Assembly: GCA_017609085.1 (NCBI GenBank)
Contig: JAFCEO010000003.1
Span: forward strand, 1-35,031
Source of the DNA: Candidatus Pacearchaeota archaeon
GTDB lineage: Archaea > Nanobdellota > Nanobdellia > Pacearchaeales > GW2011-AR1
DNA: 35,031 nucleotides
Direction of reading: 5' to 3'
In this document: in pieces, positions 1,699 to 21,062 of the stretch
Layout of the letters: the number at the start of each line of letters is the position of its first letter
Numbering within the stretch: the stretch's first letter is position 1
Position numbers and translations under genes: made by a program
Notes under the pieces: generated by a model
Database searches by the model: none
What the model saw: only the letters and a program-made list of their open reading frames with translations
What the model was told of the DNA's origin: nothing

Positions 1699-4600
1699 AT
1701 GGAAATTTTAAAAAAATTAATTTTAATATTAATAATATTCATATTTTTGTTAGGTCTGGGAAAATGTTCAGAAAATTATAATTTTTCCTCTGAAGATTCT
1801 TGTGAAGGACTTTGTATTTATAATATTAAGGGAAATATTTCTCTTGTAAGAGAAGTTCAAAAAGAAGGCGAGAAAATAAAAGAAAGAATAGGGCATATTT
1901 TATTAGAAAAAGATAAAAATATAGAAAAGATAAATTTCGAGTTGAATAAAAGAATTAAAAATAGTCAAGAAATTTTAGAGAGTGTAGAGAATTCAGTTCA
2001 AAAATTATATAGCTCTTCTTTCACTTCACAGCATTCAAATGAATGTGGCTCTGTTCCTACCGATGGTTGTACGATTACAAAAGATACTGTTTTTAGAAGA
2101 GGGAATTACTATCTTCCAAACGGAATAGAAATAATATCTGACGGCATTACTCTTGATTGTAATGGTTCCACTTTAACAGGAAATTTTGATTCTTTCGGAA
2201 TTAATATTTTTAATAGAACAGACATTACAGTAAAAAATTGCGTTATTACTAATTTTATGATAGGAATTTCTCTTGTCTATAGTTCTGAAAATACAATAAA
2301 AGAGAATATAATAAACTCAAATTATTATGCGGGAATATTGATGTATTCAGGTTCAGATTTTAACACTATAGAAAGCAATACTCTAAATTCAGATTATTTA
2401 GGGATTTACGGAGAGTTAAGTTCAAATAACAAAATAAGGAATAACACATTAAAAAATAACGAATATGGGATGTGGATTTATTCAAATTTTAACGATTTAA
2501 TAGAGGGTAATAGGGGCGAGTTTAATAGCGTCGGTATTTATCTTAATAAGAGTTCAAATGTTCTTATATCATCTAACAAAATTGCAAACTCAAAATTTTG
2601 CGGTTTTTACTTGTTTTCCAATTCGAATAATAATATAAGAAACAATATGGTGAATAATTCCTTAGCAGGATTTTATCTCGATTCGAGTTCTAAGAATAAT
2701 CTTAAGAATAATACAGCATTTTCTAATAAATGGGGGATATTTTTATTTTCAAGTTTTAGCAACGAATTAAAATTTAATACTCTAGATTTGAATGAAGATG
2801 GAATTGTTTTGGACTCATCTAACAATAATTTTTTAGATAAAAATTTTCTGGGTTTAAATACTAAATCAGGAATTTATTTAAGTTATTCTGATGACAACAC
2901 TATTAAACACAACACTGCAGAATCAGATGCAATAGGAATTTATTTTTTTAATTCTCACGACAATATTATTAAAGAGAATATAGTAAAAAATAGCAGTGAA
3001 ATTGGTTTAGGTTTTTCTTTCTCAAATGGAAATCTTTTGTCCGATAATGATGTAACTAAGAATTTTGAAGAAGGAATTTTGTTGGCTCATTCGCGAAAAA
3101 ATATTCTTTTAAATAACAAGATACTCGACAACGGAGGAGTAGGGATATTTCTTCTTAATTCGAGTGAGAATACCATAAATAATAGCAATATAAAACATAA
3201 TGAAAAAGGGATACATTTTTTTGAGTCAGACGACAACAACTTATATATGAACAGGTTATGTTATAATACTCAGGATTTTTCTTTTTCTAGACCTTCTACA
3301 AATTACGGCGATGATAATATTTGCGATAGTCCTGGCACATGGATTCTTTGGAAAGATAAAGATACTGTTGGTTGCTCCTACTCTTGCTCTAAAGAACGTT
3401 GCGATAAATTTGAGTTAGGTTCAGCAAAAGGATTTAGTTTGCTTAATTTTGAAAATAATGATTGTGTGGTTGATTTGATTGATTGGTTTAAGGATTCTAA
3501 ACATTCTTCATATGAAGATTTTCTTAACCTTTCATGCGATTCTGTAATTGAATTTGAATTAGATGTTCCTAAAGAAGCGAAGATGTTAAGGATAGCTTAT
3601 AATTTCTTTTTATTTAATTCAGAGAATAAAGAAAATTCTCAAAACCTATTACAAGAAATTTATATTTATAATTTTGATGAAAATGTCTGGGAAAATGTTT
3701 ATTTTGAAGAAAGCATCCCCTCCGATTTTGAAGAAAGTATAATAAATATTCCAATTACAGAGGAGAGGCGATATAACAATAAGATAAAATTGAAAGCAAG
3801 ATTAAATAATTTAGATAATAATCCTGATTTTTCTTATGCGTGTCAAATTTATGAAGATTCTGTAGACTGTAGGCAATTTAGTTTAGACAGGTTTGTTTAT
3901 CAATTTTGTCAGAACCCTTTTTCTCTTTTTATTAGTCCTTCAGTTTCTTACGATATAGAGTCCAGCAGGTTAAATATTCAGGTTTATGCATATGATATTG
4001 AGAATGGGGAAGAGGTTAAATCAGGCCATTCTTCTTATAGGATAATTAAGTCTAACCGAACTATTACTGGAGGAAAATTAGAGTATGACGGATTGTGGAA
4101 AACAACTAAGACAATAAACCTTTCTTCAGGCGAGTATTTGATTGAGTTAAATATTAATGGTTTTGTTGAAAGCACAAATTTTTATACAGGAAAAAAGGAA
4201 TCTAAAATTTATGGTTCGGTTAAAGACAGTTCAGGATTAGTAGAAGCTACCATTAATCTTTATAAGGCATTAGAGTATCCTAACAGAGTATTATATTCTA
4301 TTGTAAATGATAGCTATTCCTTTATTGTAGAGCCAGGTTCTTATGTTGTAGAAGCGGCTAAAGATGGCGAAATTTTTACAACCCTTGCTTTTTCAATAGA
4401 TGGAGGAGAAGAGATTAAAAGAGATTTATTTTTAGGTGAGAAAAAAGGAAGTTTAAAATGGTTCTTATATGAGCTAAAAAAAGAATTGGAGAATAAACTC
4501 AGTGAAGAAACTACAAAAATTTCTGATTTAACAGAAATGGTTAGTAACGATTTAAGTAGTGACGATGCTATGGCTTTAGCTAATGCCATTAGCGATGGTG

Positions 4601-6849
4601 TTACAGACAATAATATTCCTACAATATCTTTTATTGCTGCTATTTTGGAAAAAACTGTACCCACTTTTACTTCGCGAATAGCTTATGGGAGAACTATAAA
4701 TTATCTCATAAACAATACTCGTGAATTAATTATTTCATACAGAAATGGGGATGGAGGAATAGAAGTTTTCTCGTGGTTAATGGATAGCGAAGGAGGATTT
4801 AAAAAAAGAACTGTGCAAGAAATAAAGGATAAAGAAATATATAAAAAAAGTTTACAACTGATAAATCAATCCTATAATGATTTATCTTTTCACGTTAATG
4901 ACAATTTTGATTTTTTAAAAGCAAAAAAAATTATTGGAGACCAACTGACTCAGTTAAAAGGGATTTCTGCTCATGAAGAGCTTTTATTACTTCCCGACCC
5001 TTCTACAGAACCTATTGTTTGGAATTTTGAAAACTACTATAACTCTTATTTAGAGAATCATAGGACAATGAAATATGCAAAACTAGGAAAAAAAATCGCC
5101 CTCTCTTTGCAGGCAGTTATAGGAATTGTTGTAAGTATTATTGCTTCCCCTGTTGCAGGGTTGACAACTTTTGTCACTTTAAATAAAATTTCTACTCCTT
5201 TTTATATCGCTTTAAATCTAGCACAATTCTCAACTCAAATTTTAGCAGTTCAAAATTATGCTTTTACTTCAGCAGAATGGATTATTGATACAGCCAAAAT
5301 ACCTTTCATATACAATAAAACAATAGTTTTTATTCAAAGAGAAACAGAAGAACCTTACTATTTAAACAAAAATAAATTTTTTGATTCTGAATTGGAAATT
5401 AATTTGAATCCAGATAAAGTCATAAACGGGAAAAATTTTGTTTTCCCATCCTCTTCTTTAGGACTTACTGTAAGAAATGTTACAGTTAGAGTAAAAAATT
5501 TGCTCGACCCTTCCTTAACCAGGGTTTTAGCAGGATCTGTGTCTGAAATTGAGAAGAATAAAGAAAAGACAACATCTCTTTTAGGTTATGATTATCTTTC
5601 TGTAAATCTTAGTTCGAATCAAGAAATTGAAAAAAATCTGTCTTACTTTGGCTTAGACCAAAGTCAAACCGGCTCTATATTTGACCCCCACATTTTGGTA
5701 GTTCAGATTTTTTCTGGACCTTTTCAGACCACGATCGATACTGTTCATTATTTTGTTCTTTCTCTTTTGAAAATTAATCAAATAACTTATCAATCTTCTT
5801 ATAAAACAGAGAACTTTCGACTGCGAAATGTGGATAGGGAAATTTTAAATTGGGAAAAAATCAAGGAGGCAGAGTTGCCTATGAGAAGTATAGAGAAACA
5901 ATTTACAGTAGAAGATTTTGTTAGATTTACTCCTTTAGTGTATTCCATAAATGCCGAAAATTCTAATAATTTGGAGAAAACATATTCAACAAATTTTAAC
6001 GGGAAAGGAGATAACAAGATTAATTTGAATTCGAATCGTCCAGAATTTAGTTTTAACTATACTGTTGGAAACAGTTACGGCGTCGAATTTCAATTGTTCC
6101 ATCCTTTAGGAGCAGATGTAGATTTAGATGTTTATTATGGTGGTCACCATGTCGGTTTCAATCCTTTTAGCGGGAAAGATGAAATCGGTTTTCCTGGAAC
6201 TTATTCTGGAAAATATAAAAATCCAGAAATCATTTATATTCCAAATGCGGCAAATAAGACTTACGAAGTTAGAGCAAGATTAATTAAAGAAAATACAAAT
6301 TTATCAGTTCCTATAAAATTGAATATTTTAGAAATTCCATTTAGGCCTGCTGTTTTGATGGTTTTCCCAGATGAATTAAATCAAGAAATATTATTGGGAG
6401 AAAATTTTTCCCTATATTTTACAATCGGAGAAGTAGGAAAACAAAAACCTATTCACAATGTTACTGTCAATATAGATTTAGGTTTGGCTAATCTTTCTAA
6501 AAAAGACTATCACTTTTCCAAAATCGATGCCAGTTCTTTGAAAGAAATAAACTTTTCTTTTCAGGCTACAGAAACAGGAAATTTTTCAGGTAAACTTAAA
6601 GTAAATAGCTCTATTGGAGAGATTATAGCTAATATCGAAATTTTTGTTAGTCAAGTTCAAGAAAAACTGCCGGGTGATGTGAATGGTGATTGTAAAGTTA
6701 ATATTTTCGATTTAGCCGCCATTGGTTTGGCTTATGGAAGTGAGCGTGGAGAGAGCCATTGGAATGAAAATGCAGATTTGAATAATGATGGCAAAATTAA
6801 TATTTTCGATTTAGCGATAGTGGGTCTAAATTACGGAAAAGTGTGTTAA
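1699..6849 (+). CDS. Large secreted protein: signal peptide, NosD-like beta-helix repeats, helical/hydrophobic middle region, Ig-like C-terminal part, C-terminal dockerin
   Basis: N-terminal hydrophobic signal (MEILKKLILILIIFIFLLGLGKC). Many repeats of the type SSNNxIxxNxxxxNxxGIxL. Ends with a duplicated Ca-loop dockerin (GDVNGDCKVNIFDLAAIGLAYG...ADLNNDGKINIFDLAIVGLNYGKVC). Confidence 0.85.
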   Translation: MEILKKLILILIIFIFLLGLGKCSENYNFSSEDSCEGLCIYNIKGNISLVREVQKEGEKIKERIGHILLEKDKNIEKINFELNKRIKNSQEILESVENSVQKLYSSSFTSQHSNECGSVPTDGCTITKDTVFRRGNYYLPNGIEIISDGITLDCNGSTLTGNFDSFGINIFNRTDITVKNCVITNFMIGISLVYSSENTIKENIINSNYYAGILMYSGSDFNTIESNTLNSDYLGIYGELSSNNKIRNNTLKNNEYGMWIYSNFNDLIEGNRGEFNSVGIYLNKSSNVLISSNKIANSKFCGFYLFSNSNNNIRNNMVNNSLAGFYLDSSSKNNLKNNTAFSNKWGIFLFSSFSNELKFNTLDLNEDGIVLDSSNNNFLDKNFLGLNTKSGIYLSYSDDNTIKHNTAESDAIGIYFFNSHDNIIKENIVKNSSEIGLGFSFSNGNLLSDNDVTKNFEEGILLAHSRKNILLNNKILDNGGVGIFLLNSSENTINNSNIKHNEKGIHFFESDDNNLYMNRLCYNTQDFSFSRPSTNYGDDNICDSPGTWILWKDKDTVGCSYSCSKERCDKFELGSAKGFSLLNFENNDCVVDLIDWFKDSKHSSYEDFLNLSCDSVIEFELDVPKEAKMLRIAYNFFLFNSENKENSQNLLQEIYIYNFDENVWENVYFEESIPSDFEESIINIPITEERRYNNKIKLKARLNNLDNNPDFSYACQIYEDSVDCRQFSLDRFVYQFCQNPFSLFISPSVSYDIESSRLNIQVYAYDIENGEEVKSGHSSYRIIKSNRTITGGKLEYDGLWKTTKTINLSSGEYLIELNINGFVESTNFYTGKKESKIYGSVKDSSGLVEATINLYKALEYPNRVLYSIVNDSYSFIVEPGSYVVEAAKDGEIFTTLAFSIDGGEEIKRDLFLGEKKGSLKWFLYELKKELENKLSEETTKISDLTEMVSNDLSSDDAMALANAISDGVTDNNIPTISFIAAILEKTVPTFTSRIAYGRTINYLINNTRELIISYRNGDGGIEVFSWLMDSEGGFKKRTVQEIKDKEIYKKSLQLINQSYNDLSFHVNDNFDFLKAKKIIGDQLTQLKGISAHEELLLLPDPSTEPIVWNFENYYNSYLENHRTMKYAKLGKKIALSLQAVIGIVVSIIASPVAGLTTFVTLNKISTPFYIALNLAQFSTQILAVQNYAFTSAEWIIDTAKIPFIYNKTIVFIQRETEEPYYLNKNKFFDSELEINLNPDKVINGKNFVFPSSSLGLTVRNVTVRVKNLLDPSLTRVLAGSVSEIEKNKEKTTSLLGYDYLSVNLSSNQEIEKNLSYFGLDQSQTGSIFDPHILVVQIFSGPFQTTIDTVHYFVLSLLKINQITYQSSYKTENFRLRNVDREILNWEKIKEAELPMRSIEKQFTVEDFVRFTPLVYSINAENSNNLEKTYSTNFNGKGDNKINLNSNRPEFSFNYTVGNSYGVEFQLFHPLGADVDLDVYYGGHHVGFNPFSGKDEIGFPGTYSGKYKNPEIIYIPNAANKTYEVRARLIKENTNLSVPIKLNILEIPFRPAVLMVFPDELNQEILLGENFSLYFTIGEVGKQKPIHNVTVNIDLGLANLSKKDYHFSKIDASSLKEINFSFQATETGNFSGKLKVNSSIGEIIANIEIFVSQVQEKLPGDVNGDCKVNIFDLAAIGLAYGSERGESHWNENADLNNDGKINIFDLAIVGLNYGKVC
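6673..6849 (+). other. Dockerin type I-like region
   Basis: Two DxNxDxxx[ND]xxD loops: DVNGDCKVNIFD and DLNNDGKINIFD, each followed by LAxxGLxYG. Confidence 0.87.
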
Positions 6850-6929
6850 GAGATTTATTAATTATATTTTACAGAAACATAATTTATTTATATTAGGAAT
6901 TACTTTAATCTTTATTAAGGGAAAGAAGA

Positions 6930-9665
6930 ATGAAAAAAAAGTTGATTTTGCTATCACTTGCGATCTTGTTAATTAATTTTGTAGGTGTAGTTAGTTCCGA
7001 AGATTTTAATTCTAGTCCTTTTACAGAGCTAATAGAATCAGACAATAGTACAAAGATATTTTCAGATTTTGGAAGTAGGGAAGAATATACGATAAATAGT
7101 AAAAACTATTCTTTATCTTCTACTACTTATTATATTAGGTTCGAGCCTTCTTTACCCTCAAGCGTTTGTGAGAATGAAAAAATAGACATAACTGTTAGAG
7201 GAAAAGCAAGATTTTATCCAGATAGTAAAGATTTATTTGATTGTGCGTGGCAGGATTACACTATAGTACACTGGTGTTTAAATTTAATGGAAGATGATTT
7301 TTTGTCTCGAGATGATGAAATAAAAAGTATTTGCCAATCAAGCAAAAGTTATGATTGTTCTAGTTTTTATTTTGAATATACATTCAGGGATGTGGACTTG
7401 AGCTCTGAATTTGGAGGGGTAGAAGATCAGGGTACTATAGAAGTTTATGCTGAGATTTACGATTTTGATAATAAAGTAGGGAGAAAATCTACTACAGTTT
7501 ATGATGTTGGTAAAGTAGAATGTAACTGCCTTTCCGGAGCATGTTGCGATACTTCTTCAAGACCTTATAACTTCAAACCTTATGGGAGCCAGCCAAAGGG
7601 TTATACAGACGAATATATTTGTTCAGGAAAAAATACTCCTGAAGGAACTAACTGGGTGTATAAAATAGACTATTACTGTAATGGACAGAGCTCTTCTGTA
7701 AAATCTACAAATATACAAGTAGATACTTGTGGAACTTGTGAGTATTGTACAACCGGAGATTCTACTTGTAATTATTATAGTTCTTCAACAACCTGCGGAA
7801 CAAAAGATTGTGATTATCTTGATACATCTTGCAGAGATTACCATGATATAGATAAAAAATGTGTTAGCGGAGGCAGATGTGAAGCAACAACCAGTTGTTA
7901 TAGTTCATATACAAATAAACCGAAACATACTTCTTGCGGAACAGGAAAAGAATGTGATGGAAAGGGAAATTGTATAACTTGCACGTCCCATTTTTACACA
8001 TCTTGTTACGATAATGATGTTTATTGGTATGATAAGTGTAATAATAGACAAGAAAAGAAAGAGGAATGTGGGGAAGATTTTTGTGATGCGTGGTTTACAG
8101 ATACATGCCATGGAAATGATGTTTATGAAACTAGAACATGTTATAGGAGGGGATGTAGAGCGGGAGACCAAGGACCTCATTGTTATAAAGATGCTTATGA
8201 AGAGGAAAGATATGTAAAAACATGTCAATGGGGGTGCACAAATGGGCGTTGTAATCCAAATCCAAATGTAAAATGTTACAAAGATTCAGATTGTCCACGC
8301 GTCTATAGCAACCCTTCTTGTTATGGAGACGATGTAAAAAAAGATTATACAGATTATAAATGTGAAAATCCGGGAACAGAACAATCTTATTGTAAAGAGA
8401 TTTATAATAGTAGTGCATATTATGATTGTGGTGAAGATGAGTATGGCAGTAATTATTGTTATGACGGCGATGTATATAGAGATTTTATCGACAGGGGTTG
8501 TTCTAATGGAAATTGTTTTGAAACTACAATTAAACAAAAAGTTGAAGAATGTGGTCTTGGAGGTTGCGAAAATGGACAATGTAAAAGTGAACCAGAATGT
8601 TCAGAAACAGATACTTCGTGCGGAATTTATCCAAATTGTGTGAACTGCAATTTACAAGATGGTTGTGAGGGTGATTATTATAAAGATTATTATTGTGTTA
8701 ATAATAGTAAGGGATGCAGTTACGACTCAGATGATTGTTCTGATTGTTCTTGTTCATGCGGGGGTTATAATGTGGAGGAATCGATAGCAAATGACAATTG
8801 CAATGATGGTAAAGATAACGATTGTGATGGTCAAATAGATTTAGAAGATGCTGGATGCCCCAGCGACTGTCAAAATGAATGTGTTTTTGGCAGTATAAAA
8901 TGTGTCGATAATGTTGAGATGTTTTGCGGAGATTTTGATAATGATGATTGTACAGAATGGGGGGGAAAGATTATATGCGAGTATGGTTGCAGTAATAACA
9001 AATGTAGTCCTTGCGTAGACGAATGTGTGCCAGGAGATACTAGATGCGTAGGAAACATGAAACAAGCTTGTGGCTATCCTGAGTGGGATTATTCGCGCTG
9101 TGCTAAGTGGCTCGATTTAGTAGAATGTCCAAATGGTTGTTCTGATGGCAAGTGTATAGGAGCCTCTTGCACCGATGAATGTGTTTACTTGTCTAAAAAA
9201 TGTTCTTCAAAATTTGATTATGTTATCGAAAATAACTGTATAGATTCGGACAAAGATACCTGTACAGAATGGTGCAATTGTGGATTGGTATGCGGTGAAG
9301 AATGTAGTGATGGTGTATGTGGGGGGTTTAAAGGATGTGAAGATAAGTGCAATTTTGGAGATATGAGGTGTTTATATAATAAAATACAAATTTGCGCAGA
9401 TTATAATTTTGACGGGTGTTATGAATGGGGGGGAAATACCTACTGTGACTTGGGTTGCGAGAATGGAGAATGCCTGTCCATATATGTTTTAGAAGGTGAC
9501 GTCAATAAAGATTGCAAAGTCGATATTTTTGACTTGGCAAAAGTAGGTTTGTGTTATAATCAGCAAGCTAAAGGAGATTGCAAGAATGCCGATTTAAACA
9601 ACGACGGTACAGTCAATATATTCGACCTAGCAATTATTGGCTTAAATTATGGAAAGACTTGCTAA
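6930..9665 (+). CDS. Secreted cysteine-rich protein with a C-terminal dockerin
   Basis: Signal peptide MKKKLILLSLAILLINFVGVVSS. Very high Cys content. Tandem Cys-rich modules. Ends with GDVNKDCKVDIFDLAKVGLCYN...ADLNNDGTVNIFDLAIIGLNYGKTC. Confidence 0.85.
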   Translation: MKKKLILLSLAILLINFVGVVSSEDFNSSPFTELIESDNSTKIFSDFGSREEYTINSKNYSLSSTTYYIRFEPSLPSSVCENEKIDITVRGKARFYPDSKDLFDCAWQDYTIVHWCLNLMEDDFLSRDDEIKSICQSSKSYDCSSFYFEYTFRDVDLSSEFGGVEDQGTIEVYAEIYDFDNKVGRKSTTVYDVGKVECNCLSGACCDTSSRPYNFKPYGSQPKGYTDEYICSGKNTPEGTNWVYKIDYYCNGQSSSVKSTNIQVDTCGTCEYCTTGDSTCNYYSSSTTCGTKDCDYLDTSCRDYHDIDKKCVSGGRCEATTSCYSSYTNKPKHTSCGTGKECDGKGNCITCTSHFYTSCYDNDVYWYDKCNNRQEKKEECGEDFCDAWFTDTCHGNDVYETRTCYRRGCRAGDQGPHCYKDAYEEERYVKTCQWGCTNGRCNPNPNVKCYKDSDCPRVYSNPSCYGDDVKKDYTDYKCENPGTEQSYCKEIYNSSAYYDCGEDEYGSNYCYDGDVYRDFIDRGCSNGNCFETTIKQKVEECGLGGCENGQCKSEPECSETDTSCGIYPNCVNCNLQDGCEGDYYKDYYCVNNSKGCSYDSDDCSDCSCSCGGYNVEESIANDNCNDGKDNDCDGQIDLEDAGCPSDCQNECVFGSIKCVDNVEMFCGDFDNDDCTEWGGKIICEYGCSNNKCSPCVDECVPGDTRCVGNMKQACGYPEWDYSRCAKWLDLVECPNGCSDGKCIGASCTDECVYLSKKCSSKFDYVIENNCIDSDKDTCTEWCNCGLVCGEECSDGVCGGFKGCEDKCNFGDMRCLYNKIQICADYNFDGCYEWGGNTYCDLGCENGECLSIYVLEGDVNKDCKVDIFDLAKVGLCYNQQAKGDCKNADLNNDGTVNIFDLAIIGLNYGKTC
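8866..9480 (+). repeat. Four tandem ~48-aa Cys-rich protein modules
   Basis: CQNECVFGSIKCVDNVEMFCGDFDNDDCTEWGGKIICEYGCSNNKC / CVDECVPGDTRCVGNMKQACGYPEWDYSRCAKWLDLVECPNGCSDGKC / CTDECVYLSKKC...CTEWCNCGLVCGEECSDGVC / CEDKCNFGDMRCLYNKIQICADYNFDGCYEWGGNTYCDLGCENGEC. Confidence 0.8.
9495..9665 (+). other. Dockerin type I-like region
   Basis: DVNKDCKVDIFD and DLNNDGTVNIFD loops at the C-terminus of the Cys-rich protein. Confidence 0.87.
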
Positions 9666-9750
9666 AATTAACAAAAAGCAAATTAATGATAATCAAATAT
9701 AACTTTTAAATAATAACAATTTTTAAAAACATTAATTGATTTTTAAAAAA

Positions 9751-11265
9751 ATGCCAAAAAAAAGTTACGGAGTAGGAATTTTGATTTTTGTATTGTTTCT
9801 AAGTATTTCAATTGTTTCTGCTACAACAACAGTTTATGTCGATCCTTCTAATAGTATAATTAAGGCTGGGGAAAATGTTGTTATTAGTGTAGGAATTAAT
9901 ACTGATGAAAATATTTATGCGATGAGTTTCGATTTATTTTTTAATAACAGTGTTTTAGAGGCGATTAGTTCTAGCGAGGGAGGATTTTTAGGGAAAGATG
10001 GAAAAAATGTTTTAGTTGCTGTAAATAATATAGATAACACTGCAGGGAAATTTTCTTTTGCTGCAACAAGAAGCGGACAGGTTGGTGGTGTGATTGGAAG
10101 CGGGGCTGTTGCTAATATAACTTTTAAGGCCATCTCTAATTTGGGACAATCAAATTTAGTAATTAATAATGTTCAAATTTCAGGACCTAATCTAAATCCA
10201 ATTTCCTCTAATATTGTTAATGGCGTGATTACTATAAATAACCCACCAACAGCAAGTAATTTACAATTAATTCCATCACAACCAAAAACAACCGATAATC
10301 TGCAATCTACTTATAATTATTTTGATGCTGATGGGCACGCAGAATCTGGAACAGAAATAAAATGGTATAAAAATGGTGTTTTACAGTCAGCTTATGATAA
10401 TCTGAAAACTTTGCCAAGTTCTGCTACAAATAAGGGAGAAAAATGGTATTTCACTATTAGACCAAAAGATGGCATAAGTTTCGGAAGCTTACAGACCTCT
10501 CCAACAGTTACGATACAAAATTCCGCTCCTGTCTTACAATCTATTGGAAATAAAAATATAAATGAAGGACAACTTTTGCAATTTACAGTTTCTGCATCAG
10601 ATTCTGATAACGATGTCTTAACTTATACAGTTGACGGTCTGCCTCCAGGAGCATCTTTTGTCGGACAGCAGTTTTCATGGACTCCGACTTTTGATCAAGC
10701 AGGAGTTTATCAAGTTACATTTAATGTTAATGATGGCGAAGAAATTGATTCTGAAACAATAACAATAACTGTAAAAAATGTTGATAGAGCTCCTACAATA
10801 GATTGGTTTTCACCTTCTAGTTTGGTTTTATCTTTAAGAGAAGGTTTTTCATTATTGTTTAATCATACATCAAGCGATCTTGATGGAGATACATTAGATT
10901 ATTCTTGGAAACTTAACACTGTAGAAAAAGCAACGACTCAAGACTGGATATTTACTCCAAATGAGAATCAATGCGGCCAACACGAAGTAAAATTAGAGGT
11001 TAGTGATGGGCAACTTTTGGTATCTCAACTTTGGAGCGTTACAGTTAATTTAAGAGGTGATGTGGATTTGGATGGAGATGCTGATATTTTCGATCTAGCA
11101 TCTGTCGGTTTATCGTATAGGACACAAGAAGGAGATGAGGGGTGGAATGTTCAAGCAGATATCTTTCCAGGTCCAACGATGAATGGTGAGCCAGAAGGCG
11201 ACGGAAAAGTAGATATTTTTGATCTAGCAATGGTTGGTTTAAATTATGGAAGAAGTTGTTTTTGA
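9751..11265 (+). CDS. Secreted scaffold-like protein: N-terminal cohesin, Ig-like domains, C-terminal dockerin
   Basis: Start moved from the listed TTG (9736) to ATG 9751 (MPKKSYGVGILIFVLFLSISIVSA). Cohesin-like TVYVDPSNSIIKAGENVVISVGINTDENIYAMSFDLFFNNSVLEAISS...GSGAVANITFKAI. Ig/PKD-like repeats (GNKNINEGQLLQFTVSASDSDNDVLTYTVDGLPPGASF). C-terminal dockerin. Confidence 0.85.
   Translation: MPKKSYGVGILIFVLFLSISIVSATTTVYVDPSNSIIKAGENVVISVGINTDENIYAMSFDLFFNNSVLEAISSSEGGFLGKDGKNVLVAVNNIDNTAGKFSFAATRSGQVGGVIGSGAVANITFKAISNLGQSNLVINNVQISGPNLNPISSNIVNGVITINNPPTASNLQLIPSQPKTTDNLQSTYNYFDADGHAESGTEIKWYKNGVLQSAYDNLKTLPSSATNKGEKWYFTIRPKDGISFGSLQTSPTVTIQNSAPVLQSIGNKNINEGQLLQFTVSASDSDNDVLTYTVDGLPPGASFVGQQFSWTPTFDQAGVYQVTFNVNDGEEIDSETITITVKNVDRAPTIDWFSPSSLVLSLREGFSLLFNHTSSDLDGDTLDYSWKLNTVEKATTQDWIFTPNENQCGQHEVKLEVSDGQLLVSQLWSVTVNLRGDVDLDGDADIFDLASVGLSYRTQEGDEGWNVQADIFPGPTMNGEPEGDGKVDIFDLAMVGLNYGRSCF
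9826..10239 (+). other. Cohesin-like domain 1
   Basis: Typical cohesin layout: xxGxxVxIxVxIxxxxxxYAxxFDLxFNxxVLEAxS...GxFxFAxTRxGxxGGVxGxGxxAxIxFKAI. Confidence 0.82.
11056..11265 (+). other. Dockerin type I-like region
   Basis: GDVDLDGDADIFDLASVGLSY...EPEGDGKVDIFDLAMVGLNYGRSCF. Confidence 0.82.
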
Positions 11266-11288
11266 TTAATTAAATTTGAATTTTAAAT

Positions 11289-12047
11289 ATGGAAAATAAA
11301 ATTTTAGCTTTACTAATTTTAATAGCAATAATTTTTATATCTACGAGTGGCTTAATTATTTGGCAGACAGGTTTTACAATTAAAGACTCTAATGAAGGAT
11401 ATAAAAATAATCTTAGGTTAGTCGGTCAAGAAGATAATAACCAAATCGCAATTGGCGATTTAAAAGACGACACAAAGATTACTGGAAATGCAATTAAAAT
11501 TAGTACAGACAGTAAAACATCCTTTATCTCTAGAAGTTCGGGAGGTGGTGGCGGTTCAAGCGGAGGAAGTAGTAGTTCAGATAGAGAGAAAGAAAATAAC
11601 GCAGCTTCAGAAGGAGAACAACAAGAAACATATCTTGTAGATATTTCAATCGATTCGTATTCTGGAAAGAAGGATGAGGAATTTATAATTAATGTTTATA
11701 TCAATACAGACAAGAAACTTTATGCTGTTGAGTTTGAATTAGACTATAATTCATCTATTTTAGAAACGTCTAAAGATAATATAACTAAAGGAGATTTTCT
11801 TAATAAAGATGGAACTGATACTTATGAAATTATAAAAACTGAAGAAGGAAAAATAATTTTTGCATCTACACGACTTGGTCAAACAGGAGGAGTTTCAGGA
11901 GAAGGTATTTTAGCTCAAATTAAATTTAAGGCAATTTCTGAAGGAGTCAGTCCTCTATCTTTAACTAATGTTAAAATAACTGATACAAGTTTAGAAGTCG
12001 ATAAATTTAAGGTCAATGTAGAAAATGGCAAAGTAACAATCTTTTAA
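11289..12047 (+). CDS. Membrane-anchored single-cohesin protein (candidate anchoring scaffoldin)
   Basis: N-terminal TM/signal-anchor (ILALLILIAIIFISTSGLIIWQTGF), Gly/Ser-rich linker (SSGGGGGSSGGSSSSD), C-terminal cohesin, no dockerin. Confidence 0.8.
   Translation: MENKILALLILIAIIFISTSGLIIWQTGFTIKDSNEGYKNNLRLVGQEDNNQIAIGDLKDDTKITGNAIKISTDSKTSFISRSSGGGGGSSGGSSSSDREKENNAASEGEQQETYLVDISIDSYSGKKDEEFIINVYINTDKKLYAVEFELDYNSSILETSKDNITKGDFLNKDGTDTYEIIKTEEGKIIFASTRLGQTGGVSGEGILAQIKFKAISEGVSPLSLTNVKITDTSLEVDKFKVNVENGKVTIF
11626..12044 (+). other. Cohesin-like domain 2
   Basis: TYLVDISIDSYSGKKDEEFIINVYINTDKKLYAVEFELDYNSSILETS...EGKIIFASTRLGQTGGVSGEGILAQIKFKAI. Confidence 0.82.
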
Positions 12048-12088
12048 TAAAATATCTTTTGAATTAAAATAATCTTTAAATATGGTAA

Positions 12089-15000
12089 ATGATAAGTAAA
12101 AAAATGAAAAAAAAGATGAAGAGTTTAAGCTTCGCGATATTTTTGATATTAATCTCTCTATTGTTTCTCAATTTAACTTTGGCAATAAATTCTAAAGAGC
12201 TTGCTTTGAAATTGAACAGACTCGAGTTGATAGATGGGGATGTAAATGCTGACGGTAAAGTCGATATTTTTGACCTAGCCGCAATAGGATTATATTATAA
12301 TACAGATGAGAACAACGAAAATTGGAATTGGAAAGTAGATATAGCCAACACTGTTGGAGAAATAGATATTTTTGATTTAGCTGAAGTTGGCTTAAATTAT
12401 GGGAAAATTTATGCTCAGACTATTGAGGACCCTGTTTTTGTTTCTCCTTCAATTAAGAATGTAACAAAGGGCAAGGAGTTTTTAATTAATATTAATATAT
12501 CAACCCCTGCTGATGTTTATGCTGTTGATTTTATTTTAAGTTTTAATAACGAAATAATTACAGCTTTAAATGTAACAGAAGGCAGCTTCTTAAAAAAAGA
12601 TGGTGTTGCAACCTATCCTGTCATTAATATAGATAATTCAGCTGGAAGAATAGAATTTGCAAACACAAGACTTGGAACAACCAACCCTGTTTCAGGAGAA
12701 GGAATCTTAGCTCAGATTAAGTTTAGATCCACTAATCTAGGAGCGAGTGATTTGGATTTTGTTGAACTTACTTTAGTTGATCCTAATTTAAATGATATTT
12801 TGAATGTTTCCACAATAGATGGAGAGATAAATGTAATTCCAGGAGAATCTCCTTCGATTGTAAGTTATGGTGTTGACAATCTTTATATATCTCCAAATGG
12901 CGATGGTATTAAGGATAGTGTAACTTTTAATTTGAAATTTTCAGAAAAAGTGAATTATAAAATCGAGATTATTAATGCAGATGGAGACACAGTTAAAGAG
13001 TGGACGGGTTACGGGGTAGATTCTGGACAGAAAACCTGGAATGGTATGGTTGAAGGAACTGCTGTAGAGGGAATTTATACAATAAAAGTAACATTAAAAG
13101 ATGAAGACGGAAACGAAGTTATAGACGAATCAAAGACAATTATAGTTGATGTTACTTCTCCAATTATAAGCGATATATCTAAAGTTCCAGAACCTTCTTA
13201 TAATAACAATGATGTAATTTTAAGTGCTAATGTTGTAGATAAAAATATAGATAAAGTATGGCTTGAAAGCGATTTTGAAAAAGCAGGTATTTTGAAAAAT
13301 TATACATTAACTTCAAGTAGCAAATACAGCTATTTAATCTCAGCTGAATATTTAAAAAATCAACAAATTGTTTCTTACAAATTTCACGCTCTAGATTTAG
13401 CTGGCAATGATGTAGAAAGTAATATGCTTTCTTTTAAAGTTCAGAATAGGAAACCTTCTTTGTCCATTCCTAATCAAGAAACAGACGAGGACGTCAAACC
13501 TTCCTTAATCGATTTAAACACTTATTCCGGCGATGAAGATAATGATGAGCTAACTTTTGAGATTTTGAGTCAATCAAATCCAACTTTAATTTCTTGTTCA
13601 ATTTATAGTCATTATATCGATTGCTCAACTCCTGCTTCAAATCAACATGGTATTTCAGAAATTATGGTAAAGGTTTCTGATGGAATAGAAAGTGTAACTG
13701 ATAGTTTTTTTATGGTCGTTAATTCTATAAATGATTTGCCAATAGCAAATGACGATTCTGCTATAACAAATGAAGATACATCTGTTATAATAGATGTTTT
13801 AGCTAATGATTATGATGTTGAAGGTCCAGTCAGCTTAGATGCAATCACAATTCAACCAGCTCATGGGACAGCAGTAATTAATGATGACAAGATAGATTAT
13901 ACTCCTGACCAAAATTATAACGGTCAAGATAGTTTTGAGTATAAGATTAGAGATTTTAGTGATGCAACAGCTACAGCTACTGTTACAATAACAGTAAATC
14001 CAGTAAATGACGCTCCTGTCGCTAATGACGACTCTGTTACAATAGACGAAGATAATTCAGTTTTAGTAAACGTTTTAGCTAATGATTATGATGTCGAAAA
14101 AGATAGTTTAACAATAAGAATAATTGGCGAACCAAGCCATGGTTTAGCTAACATACAAAATAATAATATACATTATACTCCTAATTTAAATTATTTTGGA
14201 GCAGATGTGGTAGAATATGAAGTTAGTGATGGTCAACTTACAGCTACAGCTACTGTTACAATAACAGTAAATCCAATAAACGACGCTCCTGTAATTGATG
14301 ATTATTTCCCATTAGAGAATCCAACTATTCAAGAAAAACAAAGTCAGAAATTTAATATCGCAGTTTCAGATGTAGATGACACTGATTTAGAAATTAAATG
14401 GTATCTCGATGGGAAAGAGATTAAGACTGGAAATAGTTACGAATTTTTGAGCGATTGTAATTCTCAAGGAACATATGAGGTTAAAGCGGTAGTTAATGAC
14501 GGGAAACTTACTGACGAGCATATTTGGCAGTTAACAGTAGAAGATGTTTGCTCCAGAATTTATTTAAAATCCGGAAATAATATCTTCTCATTGCCAAGAA
14601 ATGAGCAGAAAAGCTTTAACGAGTTGAATACAGATTGTAATGTTGTTGTAGAAAATGGAAGGGCAGACTTAGCTTATTATAAACCAAGCGGGGCAAATAT
14701 TAGCACAATTAATTACAATTTCGTTGGTTTAGATGAAACCTTATATCCTGGACAAGGTTATTTTATTAAAGTGGAGAATGACTGCTATGTTGAAATGTTT
14801 GGAGAGAAAATTGAAACGAAGGACTTAGGTTATCTTGGAACAAAAGAACTAAAAGAAGGATGGAATCTTGTGGGGGCACCTACAGATTTAACAGTTTTCA
14901 GCAGAGGAAATTGTATTTTATTTAACAATGTTGGAATACTTAAATATGGGTATGATGTTGCCAGTTGTAATGAAGTTGAAGGATACAATGGAGGATATTC

Positions 15001-15109
15001 AAATTGCACTATTAAAAACGGAATAAGTAGGTGCAGATGTGAGGTAGATAATTTTGAACCTGGTTTTGGTTATTGGATAAGGACTGCTAACGATTGTGTT
15101 TTAGGTTAA
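12089..15109 (+). CDS. Secreted protein with N-terminal dockerin, cohesin, FlgD-like/Ig domains, tandem cadherin/VCBS-like domains and a C-terminal domain
   Basis: Signal peptide, then GDVNADGKVDIFDLAAIGLYY...GEIDIFDLAEVGLNYGK, then a cohesin (VSGEGILAQIKFRS), then LYISPNGDGIKDSVTFNL (FlgD-like), then two PVANDDSxTxxEDxSVxxxVLANDYDVE domains. Confidence 0.85.
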   Translation: MISKKMKKKMKSLSFAIFLILISLLFLNLTLAINSKELALKLNRLELIDGDVNADGKVDIFDLAAIGLYYNTDENNENWNWKVDIANTVGEIDIFDLAEVGLNYGKIYAQTIEDPVFVSPSIKNVTKGKEFLININISTPADVYAVDFILSFNNEIITALNVTEGSFLKKDGVATYPVINIDNSAGRIEFANTRLGTTNPVSGEGILAQIKFRSTNLGASDLDFVELTLVDPNLNDILNVSTIDGEINVIPGESPSIVSYGVDNLYISPNGDGIKDSVTFNLKFSEKVNYKIEIINADGDTVKEWTGYGVDSGQKTWNGMVEGTAVEGIYTIKVTLKDEDGNEVIDESKTIIVDVTSPIISDISKVPEPSYNNNDVILSANVVDKNIDKVWLESDFEKAGILKNYTLTSSSKYSYLISAEYLKNQQIVSYKFHALDLAGNDVESNMLSFKVQNRKPSLSIPNQETDEDVKPSLIDLNTYSGDEDNDELTFEILSQSNPTLISCSIYSHYIDCSTPASNQHGISEIMVKVSDGIESVTDSFFMVVNSINDLPIANDDSAITNEDTSVIIDVLANDYDVEGPVSLDAITIQPAHGTAVINDDKIDYTPDQNYNGQDSFEYKIRDFSDATATATVTITVNPVNDAPVANDDSVTIDEDNSVLVNVLANDYDVEKDSLTIRIIGEPSHGLANIQNNNIHYTPNLNYFGADVVEYEVSDGQLTATATVTITVNPINDAPVIDDYFPLENPTIQEKQSQKFNIAVSDVDDTDLEIKWYLDGKEIKTGNSYEFLSDCNSQGTYEVKAVVNDGKLTDEHIWQLTVEDVCSRIYLKSGNNIFSLPRNEQKSFNELNTDCNVVVENGRADLAYYKPSGANISTINYNFVGLDETLYPGQGYFIKVENDCYVEMFGEKIETKDLGYLGTKELKEGWNLVGAPTDLTVFSRGNCILFNNVGILKYGYDVASCNEVEGYNGGYSNCTIKNGISRCRCEVDNFEPGFGYWIRTANDCVLG
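12236..12406 (+). other. Dockerin-like region with a degenerate second Ca loop
   Basis: Loop 1 is canonical (DVNADGKVDIFD). Loop 2 region (VDIANTVGEIDIFD) lacks the regular 1/3/5 acidic spacing. Confidence 0.78.
12434..12838 (+). other. Cohesin-like domain 3
   Basis: VFVSPSIKNVTKGKEFLININISTPADVYAVDFILSFNNEIITALNV...GRIEFANTRLGTTNPVSGEGILAQIKFRST. Confidence 0.8.
13967..14002 (+). repeat. 36-bp exact direct repeat, copy 1 (in cadherin-like domain)
   Basis: acagctacagctactgttacaataacagtaaatcca, matching 14240-14275 exactly; similarity continues into the next ~17 bp with two mismatches. Confidence 0.9.
14240..14275 (+). repeat. 36-bp exact direct repeat, copy 2
   Basis: Same 36-mer, 273 bp (91 codons) downstream of copy 1. 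Confidence 0.9.
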
Positions 15110-17638: not shown

Positions 17639-20620
17639 CTAACCACAACCGCCAGAATCCCCACAATTAATGCATTTTCTGCAATTCGCTCCACTTGGAA
17701 CTGTTTTGTGACCACATTTTTTACAATAAATGTCAAATATTGGAATTTCCCCCTTCTTTAATTCATCTTCGTATAATGGGAATACTTCTGTTAATTTTCC
17801 CTCCTCCATTGCAGTTTCAATAAAATCTATTCTTGATTGATAATGCCTTAATCTTCTCAGTCGAGCAAGGACATTACATCTTAATTCTTTCATCTGTTTT
17901 TCACTTGGTTTTACATCACAAACCGAGAGATCTCCAAGGTATTCTAATTGAATTATTTTTGCGAACATATCTTCAATTGAAGAGCACGTTCTAATAAAAG
18001 GATGGTCTGTCATACCATGTATAGTACCACTCGCTCCTTTATTGTGCTTAATAAATTCTTCAATTGTTCCACCTTTCTGTCTTCCTCTTGAAGCTTCTTT
18101 TCCCCAACTTGAATAAGAAGCTGCTAAAGGAGAACCCGAGCTACCAAATAAAACAAAAAAATCAGCAGGAGCATCTTTGGGAGGGCGGTCTTCGTATTCA
18201 CCAACAATAAAATGGACTCCTACCCCATTTATTGTAACATTCCAACCAGCCCTATTGATATGTCCTCCTTTTAAAACAGGATTTTCTGGTTTAATTCTGT
18301 CTCCCCATTTAAGTTCTTTTGATTCTTGTTTTGATTTTATATTTACTGGTTGTATGCCTTTTGCTCCATCTATGTACAGACTTATAGATTTTAAACCAAG
18401 TTTCCAACCTTTGATATAAACATCTCTAACGTCTTGTATTGTTGAACCTTTCGGAAGGTTAACCGTCTTTGAAATGGCTCCAGACAAAAATGGTTGGACA
18501 GCAGCCATCATTTTTAAATGTCCATCAACAGAAATTGCATTATCTCCGAAAGCAGTCGCAAATACTTTATAATGTTCTTTTTTCAACCCTGGTGCATTAA
18601 TAACACTACCATTTTCTGTTATGTATTCTATTATTTTTTCTAATCTTCCTCCTTCATAGCCTAATGATTTCAATCCTTTAATTACACAAGAAGCAAGAGG
18701 TCTTTTGAGTTCTCCTCCTCCTGATAAACTTTTAGTAGAGATTAATCCAATCATAGGCTCAATTCCAGTACAATCAACATCCATCATAAAACCAATAGTT
18801 CCTGTTGGTGCAAGTAAGGTTACTTGAGCATTTCTAAATCCATATTTTTCTCCTCTGAATATAACTTCATCCCAAACTTTTTCAGCTTCATCGATAAGTT
18901 TCTCTAAACCATTAACTTTATTTATTCTTTTAATTTTTTTTGTCGCCTCTTGATGCATTCTCATAACTTGTAGCATTGGCTCTTTATTTTTTTCGAATTC
19001 TTTAAAAGGACCCAATTTTTCAGCGAGTTCAGAAGAGGTTAAATAAGCGTAACCAGTCATTAAAGAAGTTACTGCAGAAGCAATTGCTCTGCCTTCTTCA
19101 GAGTCATAAGCTATCCCTCTTTCCATTAATAACGCGCCTAAATCTGCATAACCCAATCCTAAAGCTCTAAATAAGTGAGAATTTTTAGCTATCTCTTTAG
19201 AAGGATATGAAGCATAATCTACTAAAATTTCTTGAGCTATGATTGAATTTCTGACAGCTGTCTTAAATGCTTCCAAATTAATGATTTCACCATCCTTGGC
19301 TCTTTCTGAAAATTTAGTTAAACGTAATGAAGCCAGATTGCAAGCAGAATCATCTAAAAACATATATTCTGAACAAGGATTTGAGGCATTTATTCTTCCT
19401 GAGTTCGGACATGTATTCCATTTGTTAATAGTAGTATCGTATTGTAAAGCAGGGTCGCCTGTAACTGCTGCAGCTCTTGCTATATGTTCTAAAGCTTCAG
19501 CAGCATTAATTACTTTTCTCTTATTTGTTAATCTTTTAATAAATCTTTTATCTGGGAGATATCTATCATCTTCATACTTTTCTAAAGGTATTTCAATTTC
19601 TTCTTTAAATCTATTTGCAGTTCTGAACCATAAATTCCAATCATCTCCAGCCAACGCAGCATTCATAAATTCGTCTGTTACTCTTATGCTATTATTTCCA
19701 TTCTGGCCAGAAACTGTCCTATAAGCTTCGCTCTCTAAATCTCCCGCGTTTTTTGGAGCCCATTTGGGATTGATAGATAACCATAAAGCTTTTTTCTCTT
19801 CATTAACTTTCCAATAAATAAATCTGTATAAATCCGGATGGTCGCATGGTTCTATCACCATTTTAGCAGCTCTTCTTGTTTTCCCTCCAGATTGAACACT
19901 TCCTGCAATTTTATCAAAAATTTCATTAAAAGACTGCTGTCCTGATGCTTTTCCTCCTCCACTTAAAGGTTCGCCCACTCCTCTGATAGGGCCATAATTA
20001 GTACCAGTACCAGAACCGTACTTGAATAACATTGCTTCTTTCTTCGCATGTTCAAAAATACTTCTCATATCATCTTTTATTGATTGAATAAAGCAGGCAG
20101 AAACTTGAGGTCTTTTATAAGTATCTATTTTATTTGTAAAGTTTCCTTTTTTAGTAACAGCCCAGTGAGAGTAAGATTTAGATGTCTCACGAACCCCGTA
20201 TGCCTCGCTTAATCCTAAATTAAACCAGACAGGAGAATTAAATGAATGTAACTGATTAAAGTGCATATAAGATAATTCGTTTCTAAATATTTTCGCTTCT
20301 TCTTTAGAAAAGATTCCTTGTCTAACTGCTTCTTTTGCCATAGTTTCATTAACCCTCTTAACTAAACTTTTAAGGCTGCTCTCTATAGGTTTTTTCCCAT
20401 CACCTTCATAGAAATATTTATTTGCAACAACTTTAGAGGCTAAATCACTCCAATTGGTGGGAAATTCTAAATCTCTTCTTTCATAAACTATTTTTCCGTC
20501 AGCGTCTTTTATCCGAACATCTCTTTTGCCCCATTCAACAGATTGTTCAGGAATAGAGTAACTTTTTGTGAAATATGGTTGTATTGACAATTTCCCCTCT
20601 CTTTTTGTTTTGTATTTCAT
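17639..20620 (-). CDS. nrdJ: Adenosylcobalamin-dependent (class II) ribonucleotide reductase
   Basis: SACFIQS, NPCSEYMFLDDSACNLASLRL (NPCxE catalytic Cys), VTLLAPTGTIGFMMDVDCTGIEP, TSCPD-like C-terminal region and zinc-ribbon tail CKKCGHKTVPSGANCRKCINCGDSGGCG. Confidence 0.95.
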   Translation of the reverse strand: MKYKTKREGKLSIQPYFTKSYSIPEQSVEWGKRDVRIKDADGKIVYERRDLEFPTNWSDLASKVVANKYFYEGDGKKPIESSLKSLVKRVNETMAKEAVRQGIFSKEEAKIFRNELSYMHFNQLHSFNSPVWFNLGLSEAYGVRETSKSYSHWAVTKKGNFTNKIDTYKRPQVSACFIQSIKDDMRSIFEHAKKEAMLFKYGSGTGTNYGPIRGVGEPLSGGGKASGQQSFNEIFDKIAGSVQSGGKTRRAAKMVIEPCDHPDLYRFIYWKVNEEKKALWLSINPKWAPKNAGDLESEAYRTVSGQNGNNSIRVTDEFMNAALAGDDWNLWFRTANRFKEEIEIPLEKYEDDRYLPDKRFIKRLTNKRKVINAAEALEHIARAAAVTGDPALQYDTTINKWNTCPNSGRINASNPCSEYMFLDDSACNLASLRLTKFSERAKDGEIINLEAFKTAVRNSIIAQEILVDYASYPSKEIAKNSHLFRALGLGYADLGALLMERGIAYDSEEGRAIASAVTSLMTGYAYLTSSELAEKLGPFKEFEKNKEPMLQVMRMHQEATKKIKRINKVNGLEKLIDEAEKVWDEVIFRGEKYGFRNAQVTLLAPTGTIGFMMDVDCTGIEPMIGLISTKSLSGGGELKRPLASCVIKGLKSLGYEGGRLEKIIEYITENGSVINAPGLKKEHYKVFATAFGDNAISVDGHLKMMAAVQPFLSGAISKTVNLPKGSTIQDVRDVYIKGWKLGLKSISLYIDGAKGIQPVNIKSKQESKELKWGDRIKPENPVLKGGHINRAGWNVTINGVGVHFIVGEYEDRPPKDAPADFFVLFGSSGSPLAASYSSWGKEASRGRQKGGTIEEFIKHNKGASGTIHGMTDHPFIRTCSSIEDMFAKIIQLEYLGDLSVCDVKPSEKQMKELRCNVLARLRRLRHYQSRIDFIETAMEEGKLTEVFPLYEDELKKGEIPIFDIYCKKCGHKTVPSGANCRKCINCGDSGGCG

Positions 20621-20621
20621 T

Positions 20622-21062
20622 TTATTTTACTTCTTTCATTGCTTTTTTAAAATCAGCTACATCTTGGAAATCACGATATACAGATGCAAAACGGATGTAT
20701 GCAACTTTATCTAATTTCTTTAAAGCTTTCATGACCTCTTCTCCTATGATTTTGCTTTCTATTTCTTTCCCCTTAATTTTATTTCTTATTTTTGTTTCTA
20801 TTTCACTAATAAGCTTATCAATTTTTTCAGTTTCTATGGGTCTTTTTTCGCATGCTTTTTCTATTCCAGCTCTTAACTTCTCTCTTGAAAAAGGCTCTCT
20901 TGTTTTATCTTTTTTAATTACAATAAAATTAGGTTCTTCAACTCTTTCATAAGTTGTGAATCTTTTTTTGCATTTTAAACATTCTCTTCTTCTCCTTGTT
21001 TCAGAGCCAGAGTCTCTTTTATCTGTAACTTTCGTCTCCCCACCACAAAAAATACATTTCAT
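20622..21062 (-). CDS. nrdR: Transcriptional regulator NrdR (zinc ribbon + ATP-cone)
   Basis: MKCIFCGGETKVTDKRDSGSETRRRRECLKCKKRFTTYERVEEPNFIVIKKDKTREPFSREKLRAGI. Confidence 0.95.
   Translation of the reverse strand: MKCIFCGGETKVTDKRDSGSETRRRRECLKCKKRFTTYERVEEPNFIVIKKDKTREPFSREKLRAGIEKACEKRPIETEKIDKLISEIETKIRNKIKGKEIESKIIGEEVMKALKKLDKVAYIRFASVYRDFQDVADFKKAMKEVK

Follow-up and report, generated by a model that had tools for sequence, protein, structure and literature searches.

A five-gene cohesin-dockerin cluster, probably encoding a surface assembly, with a kit shared by two phyla of DPANN archaea

Here we describe a cluster of genes for cohesin and dockerin modules in a Candidatus Pacearchaeota archaeon, a Pacearchaeota-type member of the DPANN archaea with a very small genome. 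The stretch analysed, referred to below as the window, is one entire contig of 35,031 nucleotides (JAFCEO010000003.1) with a G+C content (GC) of 0.316; it belongs to assembly GCA_017609085.1, a metagenome-assembled genome (MAG) of 583 kb in 27 contigs that is 88% complete. Between positions 1699 and 15109, five consecutive open reading frames (ORFs) lie on one strand with intergenic gaps of 23-85 bp, and Pfam searches together with family-specific profiles locate three cohesins and four dockerins in them (Table 1). The proteins of the 1699 and 6930 ORFs carry a dockerin only, that of the 9751 ORF a cohesin and a distant dockerin (Coh...Doc), that of the 11289 ORF a cohesin only, and that of the 12089 ORF a dockerin followed by a cohesin (Doc-Coh). 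A preliminary description of this DNA had proposed these complementary architectures, and the ORF coordinates, Pfam scores and family profile bear them out. Each of the five proteins bears a signal or anchor segment at its N-terminus. Signal and transmembrane (TM) segments in the window were called by hydropathy, and signal peptides were told from anchors by eye; only the 11289 protein was read as an anchor.

All seven modules fall inside a single stretch of 13.4 kb, for which the chance under uniform placement is roughly 1e-10. This clustering, together with the Pfam scores, led us to reject a chance or low-complexity origin of the modules. The locus had been called self-contained; in keeping with this, profiles built from relatives detected no further cohesin or dockerin in the 583 kb assembly, although the incompleteness of the MAG and the many dockerin-bearing relatives that have no recognisable cohesin (see below) weaken the term.

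All three cohesins exceed the curated cut-off of the Pfam cohesin profile PF00963 (24.1 bits), with scores of 43.2 bits (E = 5.9e-11) for the 9751 ORF, 45.0 bits (1.6e-11) for the 11289 ORF and 31.2 bits (2.8e-7) for the 12089 ORF. Of the three, cohesin 3 alone, in the Doc-Coh region of the 12089 protein, was modelled confidently by AlphaFold2 (AF2) (predicted local distance difference test, pLDDT, about 90). When the model was compared with the PDB using Foldseek, cohesins came out on top, the first being that of Archaeoglobus fulgidus (2xdh; E = 3.7e-12, target TM-score 0.85), at a sequence identity of only about 20%. The modelled domain is a cohesin beta-sandwich, as expected from the preliminary description.

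The dockerins score less uniformly. Against the Pfam profile PF00404 (curated cut-off 22.9 bits), the C-terminal dockerins of the 1699 and 6930 ORFs are over the cut-off, the N-terminal dockerin of the 12089 ORF is below it (15.5 bits for the protein, 21.2 when the genome was searched), and that of the 9751 ORF is missed, so that two of the four are recovered. The two weak or missed modules, in the 12089 and 9751 ORFs (GDVNADGKVDIFDLA...IDIFDLAEVGLNYG and GDVDLDGDADIFDLA...EGDGKVDIFDLAMVGLNYG), are evident from the sequence itself, and their low score or miss is explained by a degenerate second loop or an insert. All four score 98-115 bits against a profile made from 15 related dockerins, a partly circular result because they are themselves in the profile. 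Positions 1, 3, 5, 9 and 12 of the calcium-binding loop are acidic or Asn in seven of the eight half-repeats; the exception is the second half of the 12089 dockerin, which is degenerate at positions 1 and 5, and this degeneracy is conserved among relatives. At loop positions 10-11, every half-dockerin of the window has Ile-Phe (eight of eight), as do most of those in the whole set (44 IF among the counted motifs). In addition, a Cys occurs within the last two residues of 17 of 18 C-terminal dockerins; it is perhaps part of a disulfide clasp, although in some of them the first loop shows no Cys that would evidently pair with it.

Two labels of the preliminary description were not retained. Type I cohesins had been referred to; we leave the type open because the nearest solved relatives of the cohesin profile are the clostridial scaffoldin cohesins 2vn5/1g1k, and that of the dockerin profile is the type II dockerin of CipA (2b59). 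The repeats of the 12089 protein, described as VCBS, score as Big_9 and Cadherin_4/5.

Table 1. Proteins, modules and other features of the cluster, with positions in the window (aa, amino acids; Ig, immunoglobulin)
Feature	Position	Strand	Basis and remarks
Dockerin-only protein, secreted, putative effector, 1716 aa	1699..6849	+	Signal peptide, NosD-like beta-helix, large middle region, C-terminal dockerin
Hydrophobic segment of 1699 protein, residues 1137-1155	5107-5163	+	Hydropathy, strong
Dockerin of 1699 ORF	6664..6846	+	Pfam 36.7 bits; family profile; ends ...GLNYGKVC-stop
Dockerin-only protein, secreted, putative effector, 911 aa	6930..9665	+	Cys-rich repeats, C-terminal dockerin
Dockerin of 6930 ORF	9486..9662	+	Pfam 31.2 bits; family profile
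Coh...Doc protein, putative link	9751..11265	+	Signal peptide, cohesin, Ig/PKD-like domains, C-terminal dockerin with insert
Cohesin 1	9826..10239	+	Pfam; family profile
Dockerin of 9751 ORF	11047..11259	+	Family profile; missed by Pfam; insert between halves
Cohesin-only protein, putative membrane anchor	11289..12047	+	N-terminal TM or signal anchor, Gly/Ser linker of low complexity, cohesin at the C-terminus, dockerin absent
Predicted TM segment of anchor, residues 5-23	11301..11357	+	Hydropathy 2.85; QTGF shortly after
Cohesin 2 (anchor cohesin)	11631..12041	+	Pfam; family profile
Doc-Coh protein, putative link, 1006 aa	12089..15109	+	Signal peptide, N-terminal dockerin, cohesin, Ig/cadherin-like repeats, C-terminal GWNLVG...GYWI domain
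N-terminal dockerin of 12089 ORF	12227..12412	+	First calcium loop canonical, second degenerate (key positions INVDD)
Cohesin 3	12428..12838	+	Pfam; family profile; AF2 model; Foldseek
Sixth linked gene, lipoprotein-like product, 201 aa	15188..15793	+	Lipobox-like LTGC (by eye), C-terminal hydrophobic segment

The arrangement of the genes recurs in relatives. In five of five genomes, namely that of the window, two further Pacearchaeota and two Aenigmatarchaeota, the gene for the TM-anchored cohesin is directly followed by the Doc-Coh gene. JACPLT, a groundwater Pacearchaeota genome of the same family (G022; L048/L079), has the Coh..Doc, anchor and Doc-Coh genes in the order of the window, and JAFCEE, also of this family (G012; L049/L081), has a subtilase-dockerin gene before the pair. 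Among the Aenigmatarchaeota, VGIZ has a dockerin-only gene before the pair (L080) and a Coh..Doc gene on a separate contig (L082), and JAUWZW (L083/L085) has a run of dockerin-only genes, including those for a subtilase and a beta-helix protein, then a cohesin-only gene, a gene for an Ig-dockerin protein that resembles the second half of the 9751 protein, and the pair. Judged from gene content and order, the kit is conserved in a second, distantly related archaeal phylum, which adds to the preliminary description. The insert of the 9751 dockerin is also kept in L082 and, as far as its stop codon, in L048. The cohesins of the window and G022 are orthologous by position, with identities of 54-55% between the Coh..Doc proteins, 43-44% between the Doc-Coh proteins and 44-45% between the anchors, compared with 29-43% between non-counterparts. 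The anchor protein of all five genomes has one N-terminal TM segment followed by TGF or TGM (QTGF, QTGM, LTGF, ITGF and ITGF; 11364-11378 in the window), possibly a processing or sorting signal.

The range first proposed for the locus covers the five ORFs and omits a sixth linked gene, whose product has no Pfam match. A homologue, 51% identical, directly follows the Doc-Coh gene in L083 (13023-13679), both proteins ending in GPG.TP.DPF, and the other kit genomes have no counterpart; the product could act as a factor for assembly or for anchoring.

For the surface modules, identity to the window is about 35-55% both in CSMAG, the Aenigmatarchaeota genome with L083, and in G022; for the proteasome alpha subunit, the corresponding values are 36% and 69%. 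The kit may have passed from one DPANN phylum to another, or be under unusual constraint; either would fit this pattern. Transfer seems more probable than strictly vertical descent from before the two phyla split, since the product of the sixth gene is 51% identical between the window and CSMAG and the proteasome alpha subunit 36%, a single comparison made without a tree. Mis-binned Pacearchaeota contigs are an unlikely source of the Aenigmatarchaeota matches, because the cassette contigs have a GC close to that of the proteasome contig of their own MAG (0.42-0.45 vs 0.455, and 0.54-0.56 vs 0.559), unlike that of the window.

The two kinds of modules also tend to occur together. For 140 relatives, the co-occurrence has a Fisher p of 0.0006 to 0.002; dockerins were found in all five genomes that have a cohesin over the cut-off and in 28 of the 135 others (p = 0.0006). 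When 180 genomes of the same order were searched with the profile of the kit-type dockerin, three reached at least about 83 bits, the next best scoring 51 bits, and these three are exactly the ones carrying the cohesin kit.

On this basis we propose a surface assembly in which an anchor, links with both modules and dockerin-only cargo are joined by cohesin-dockerin contacts, a reading to which we give a probability of roughly two in three. The 11289 protein would be held in the cytoplasmic membrane by its N-terminal helix, with its one cohesin facing out of the cell at the end of a flexible linker. The 9751 and 12089 proteins would be secreted two-ended links, each inserting its dockerin into a free cohesin and offering a fresh cohesin in turn, so that the chain could extend or repeat; the 12089 link would also bear a long Ig/cadherin-like side arm. 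The 1699 and 6930 proteins would occupy the last cohesin and therefore be displayed as terminating cargo. Since no protein offers more than a single cohesin and a single dockerin, the product could only be an unbranched chain or a ring. The cargo would be exchangeable among lineages (beta-helix, Cys-rich, subtilase or possible metallopeptidase), and the assembly may present proteins to a host cell or matrix, whether for adhesion, for carbohydrate binding or for proteolysis. The chain of anchor, adaptors and effectors suggested earlier is partly supported: it agrees with the anatomy, and the gene order kept in five genomes of two DPANN phyla and the co-occurrence of the modules strengthen it. 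Binding, calcium dependence, chain order and the role of the assembly are inferred. Overall, the architecture is conserved and probably functions as a surface assembly.

A bolder version is doubtful: the kit would be horizontally exchanged among DPANN archaea and build a self-extending linear filament, with the membrane cohesin as seed, the links as monomers, the dockerin-only enzymes as caps and protease or beta-helix cargo as interchangeable parts, that is, a non-covalent, calcium-dependent alternative to a pilus for host contact, shared by Pacearchaeota and Aenigmatarchaeota.

Several observations weigh against the proposed assembly. The dockerin helices in the AF2 model of the 12089 protein are predicted with low confidence (below 50), and the model of the whole Coh...Doc link, with both modules of the 9751 protein, is poor (pLDDT 39). 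The strength of the profile co-occurrence is inflated because the profile was trained on the same genomes. Some link genes appear broken: in G022, a TAA stops the Coh..Doc frame (L048 4697-5587) within the second half of the dockerin, although what follows still looks like an intact half-repeat, and a frameshift affects the Doc-Coh gene of G012. These breaks may mean that the links are dispensable in the two genomes, or may stem from assembly or sequence errors. Furthermore, 27 of the 33 dockerin-positive relatives have no recognisable cohesin, so dockerins can have other uses. Finally, the dockerin subtypes go with position, the insert occurring in the Coh..Doc link and the degenerate second loop in the Doc-Coh link; these could represent separate specificities instead of one shared code.

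This last point bears on an ordered, layered assembly, in which each cohesin would have its own dockerin partner, as in the type I/type II pairs of cellulosomes, and the length would be fixed with no polymerisation; for example, the anchor would bind only the Doc-Coh link, and the links only effectors. The cohesins of the window and G022 agree with it: in a small tree with many weak forks, they pair according to their position (100/99 for the Coh..Doc pair, with less support for the remaining two), which fits retained roles. In the same tree, however, all three CSMAG cohesins group by genome (98/96), which fits a shared partner pool. Loop positions 10-11 set specificity in clostridial dockerins, and the Ile-Phe common to all the half-dockerins of the window also speaks against separate codes. 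We regard the layered arrangement as unlikely, though it is the most probable of the alternatives.

It is more improbable that the modules act as independent adhesins, mainly binding partners on another organism such as a host S-layer or host dockerin proteins. The dockerin-positive genomes in which no cohesin was recognised would suit this explanation, and DPANN archaea are often described as host-associated. Dockerin repeats have also been suggested as adhesins in Omnitrophota (PMC10066038). It is opposed by the close grouping of the genes for the two modules, which occur jointly and in a conserved order, and by the tendency of this type of dockerin to accompany the cohesin kit. Least of all do we expect each link to be closed by its dockerin binding its own cohesin, leaving only the anchor and the dockerin-only proteins to pair between molecules: each link has exactly one of each module and the 9751 protein a long Ig-like linker, but the few residues between the 12089 modules probably give too little reach, and neither model (the whole 9751 link or the Doc-Coh part of 12089) supports closure.

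The cargo of the kit does not resemble that of a cellulosome. Each kit genome has 3 to about 12 dockerin proteins. Those of the window that qualify as cargo are a NosD-like beta-helix protein and a Cys-rich protein. In relatives, two are subtilases (L049 8091-12161 and L085 377-4492; E = 1.2e-35 and 1.5e-42), and others have a beta-helix, an acyltransferase-like AAT domain (L087) or a MopE-like metal-binding motif; one in L055, with a weak M64 metallopeptidase match and a HEFGH motif, is a possible metallopeptidase. No glycoside hydrolase catalytic domain over the cut-off was found in the Pfam-scanned dockerin proteins, to which the scan for these enzymes was confined, nor any carbohydrate-binding module over the cut-off in the three cohesin proteins of the window. 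Across the five kit genomes no ORF has more than one cohesin, and thus there is no multi-cohesin scaffoldin; four genomes have three cohesin genes and the fifth has two. This domain content rules out a cellulosome, in agreement with the earlier view of a small archaeon that need not have classical cellulases. Since two dockerin-bearing proteins in relatives are subtilases, proteolysis or surface enzyme display is at least as likely as polysaccharide use.

Both modules occurring on secreted or surface proteins of one archaeon, the locus is an archaeal non-cellulosomal cohesin-dockerin system. It shares this character with A. fulgidus, the source of the closest structural match of cohesin 3; to our knowledge, no A. 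fulgidus operon with a membrane anchor, two-ended links and several cargo proteins has been reported. Cellulosomes of clostridia and ruminococci draw on these module families too and divide the roles alike, among an anchoring cohesin, an adaptor with both modules and dockerin-bearing cargo, but they also have a multi-cohesin, carbohydrate-binding scaffoldin and dockerin-bearing glycoside hydrolases, of which the scanned dockerin and cohesin proteins of the kit show none. Archaeal cohesin-dockerin binding is described as verified (Chadwick et al. 2022, PMC9012536). In ANME archaea, surface assemblies have likewise been inferred from both modules, with no cellulose degradation, and some proteins carry both (PMC9012536); unlike here, one protein may combine a dockerin with up to five cohesins, giving branched structures, and there are S-layer-dockerin proteins and ABC-transporter binding proteins as cargo. 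By comparison, the window kit has one cohesin per protein, a TM-cohesin anchor and protease, beta-helix or Cys-rich cargo, and resides in a DPANN genome. For the corrosive Methanococcus maripaludis Mic1c10, archaeal cohesins have been proposed to hold extracellular enzymes on the surface (PMC11452385); there, glycan contacts were proposed, and dockerin is not mentioned in the main text. Literature searches, whose coverage of subscription journals was poor, returned no description of such loci for Woesearchaeota or Pacearchaeota and no text joining cohesin, dockerin and Woesearchaeota; dockerin and Pacearchaeota were co-mentioned in a single paper, which leaves them unlinked. For Aenigmarchaeota and Nanoarchaeota, dockerin went unmentioned among the matches listed.

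Some further features of the window and its relatives should be mentioned. The start of the 9751 ORF is the ATG at 9751 or possibly a TTG at 9736. The hydrophobic segment of the secreted 1699 protein may be a membrane or pore-like element. Just upstream of the cluster, on the same strand (1-1635), lies another beta-helix protein gene, truncated by the contig edge and lacking a dockerin. Just beyond the cluster is a GatD gene, and the right half of the window contains archaeal core genes (proteasome, exosome, SBDS, FttA). A B12-dependent class II ribonucleotide reductase, adjoined by an NrdR-type repressor (17639-21062), was perhaps acquired, since it has weak or no matches among the five compared genomes. 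In G012, the Doc-Coh gene and the neighbouring anchor (L049 6409-7128 and 7210-8031) share an identical cohesin segment, ACPVINNTKGTIKFANTRLGTTTGINGNGSLAEIKF, which suggests gene conversion or an assembly error. G007, also of the same family (L050, L051 and other contigs), has a different kit with two cohesin proteins and 17 Pfam dockerin matches; the hydrophobic segment is N-terminal in one cohesin protein and C-terminal in the other, and no link protein with both modules was seen there.

DPANN archaea have tiny genomes and are often attached to other cells, but little is known about the mechanism of this attachment or of their action on the partner cells. Present in two of their phyla, the compact and conserved kit, with its anchor, links and exchangeable cargo, is a concrete candidate for the way in which enzymes or adhesins are organised on their surface, and because the modules are small, it can feasibly be tested with recombinant proteins even though the organism is uncultured. 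If our reading is true, cohesin-dockerin assembly would be a general principle of surface building beyond cellulose degradation, here in an unbranched form.

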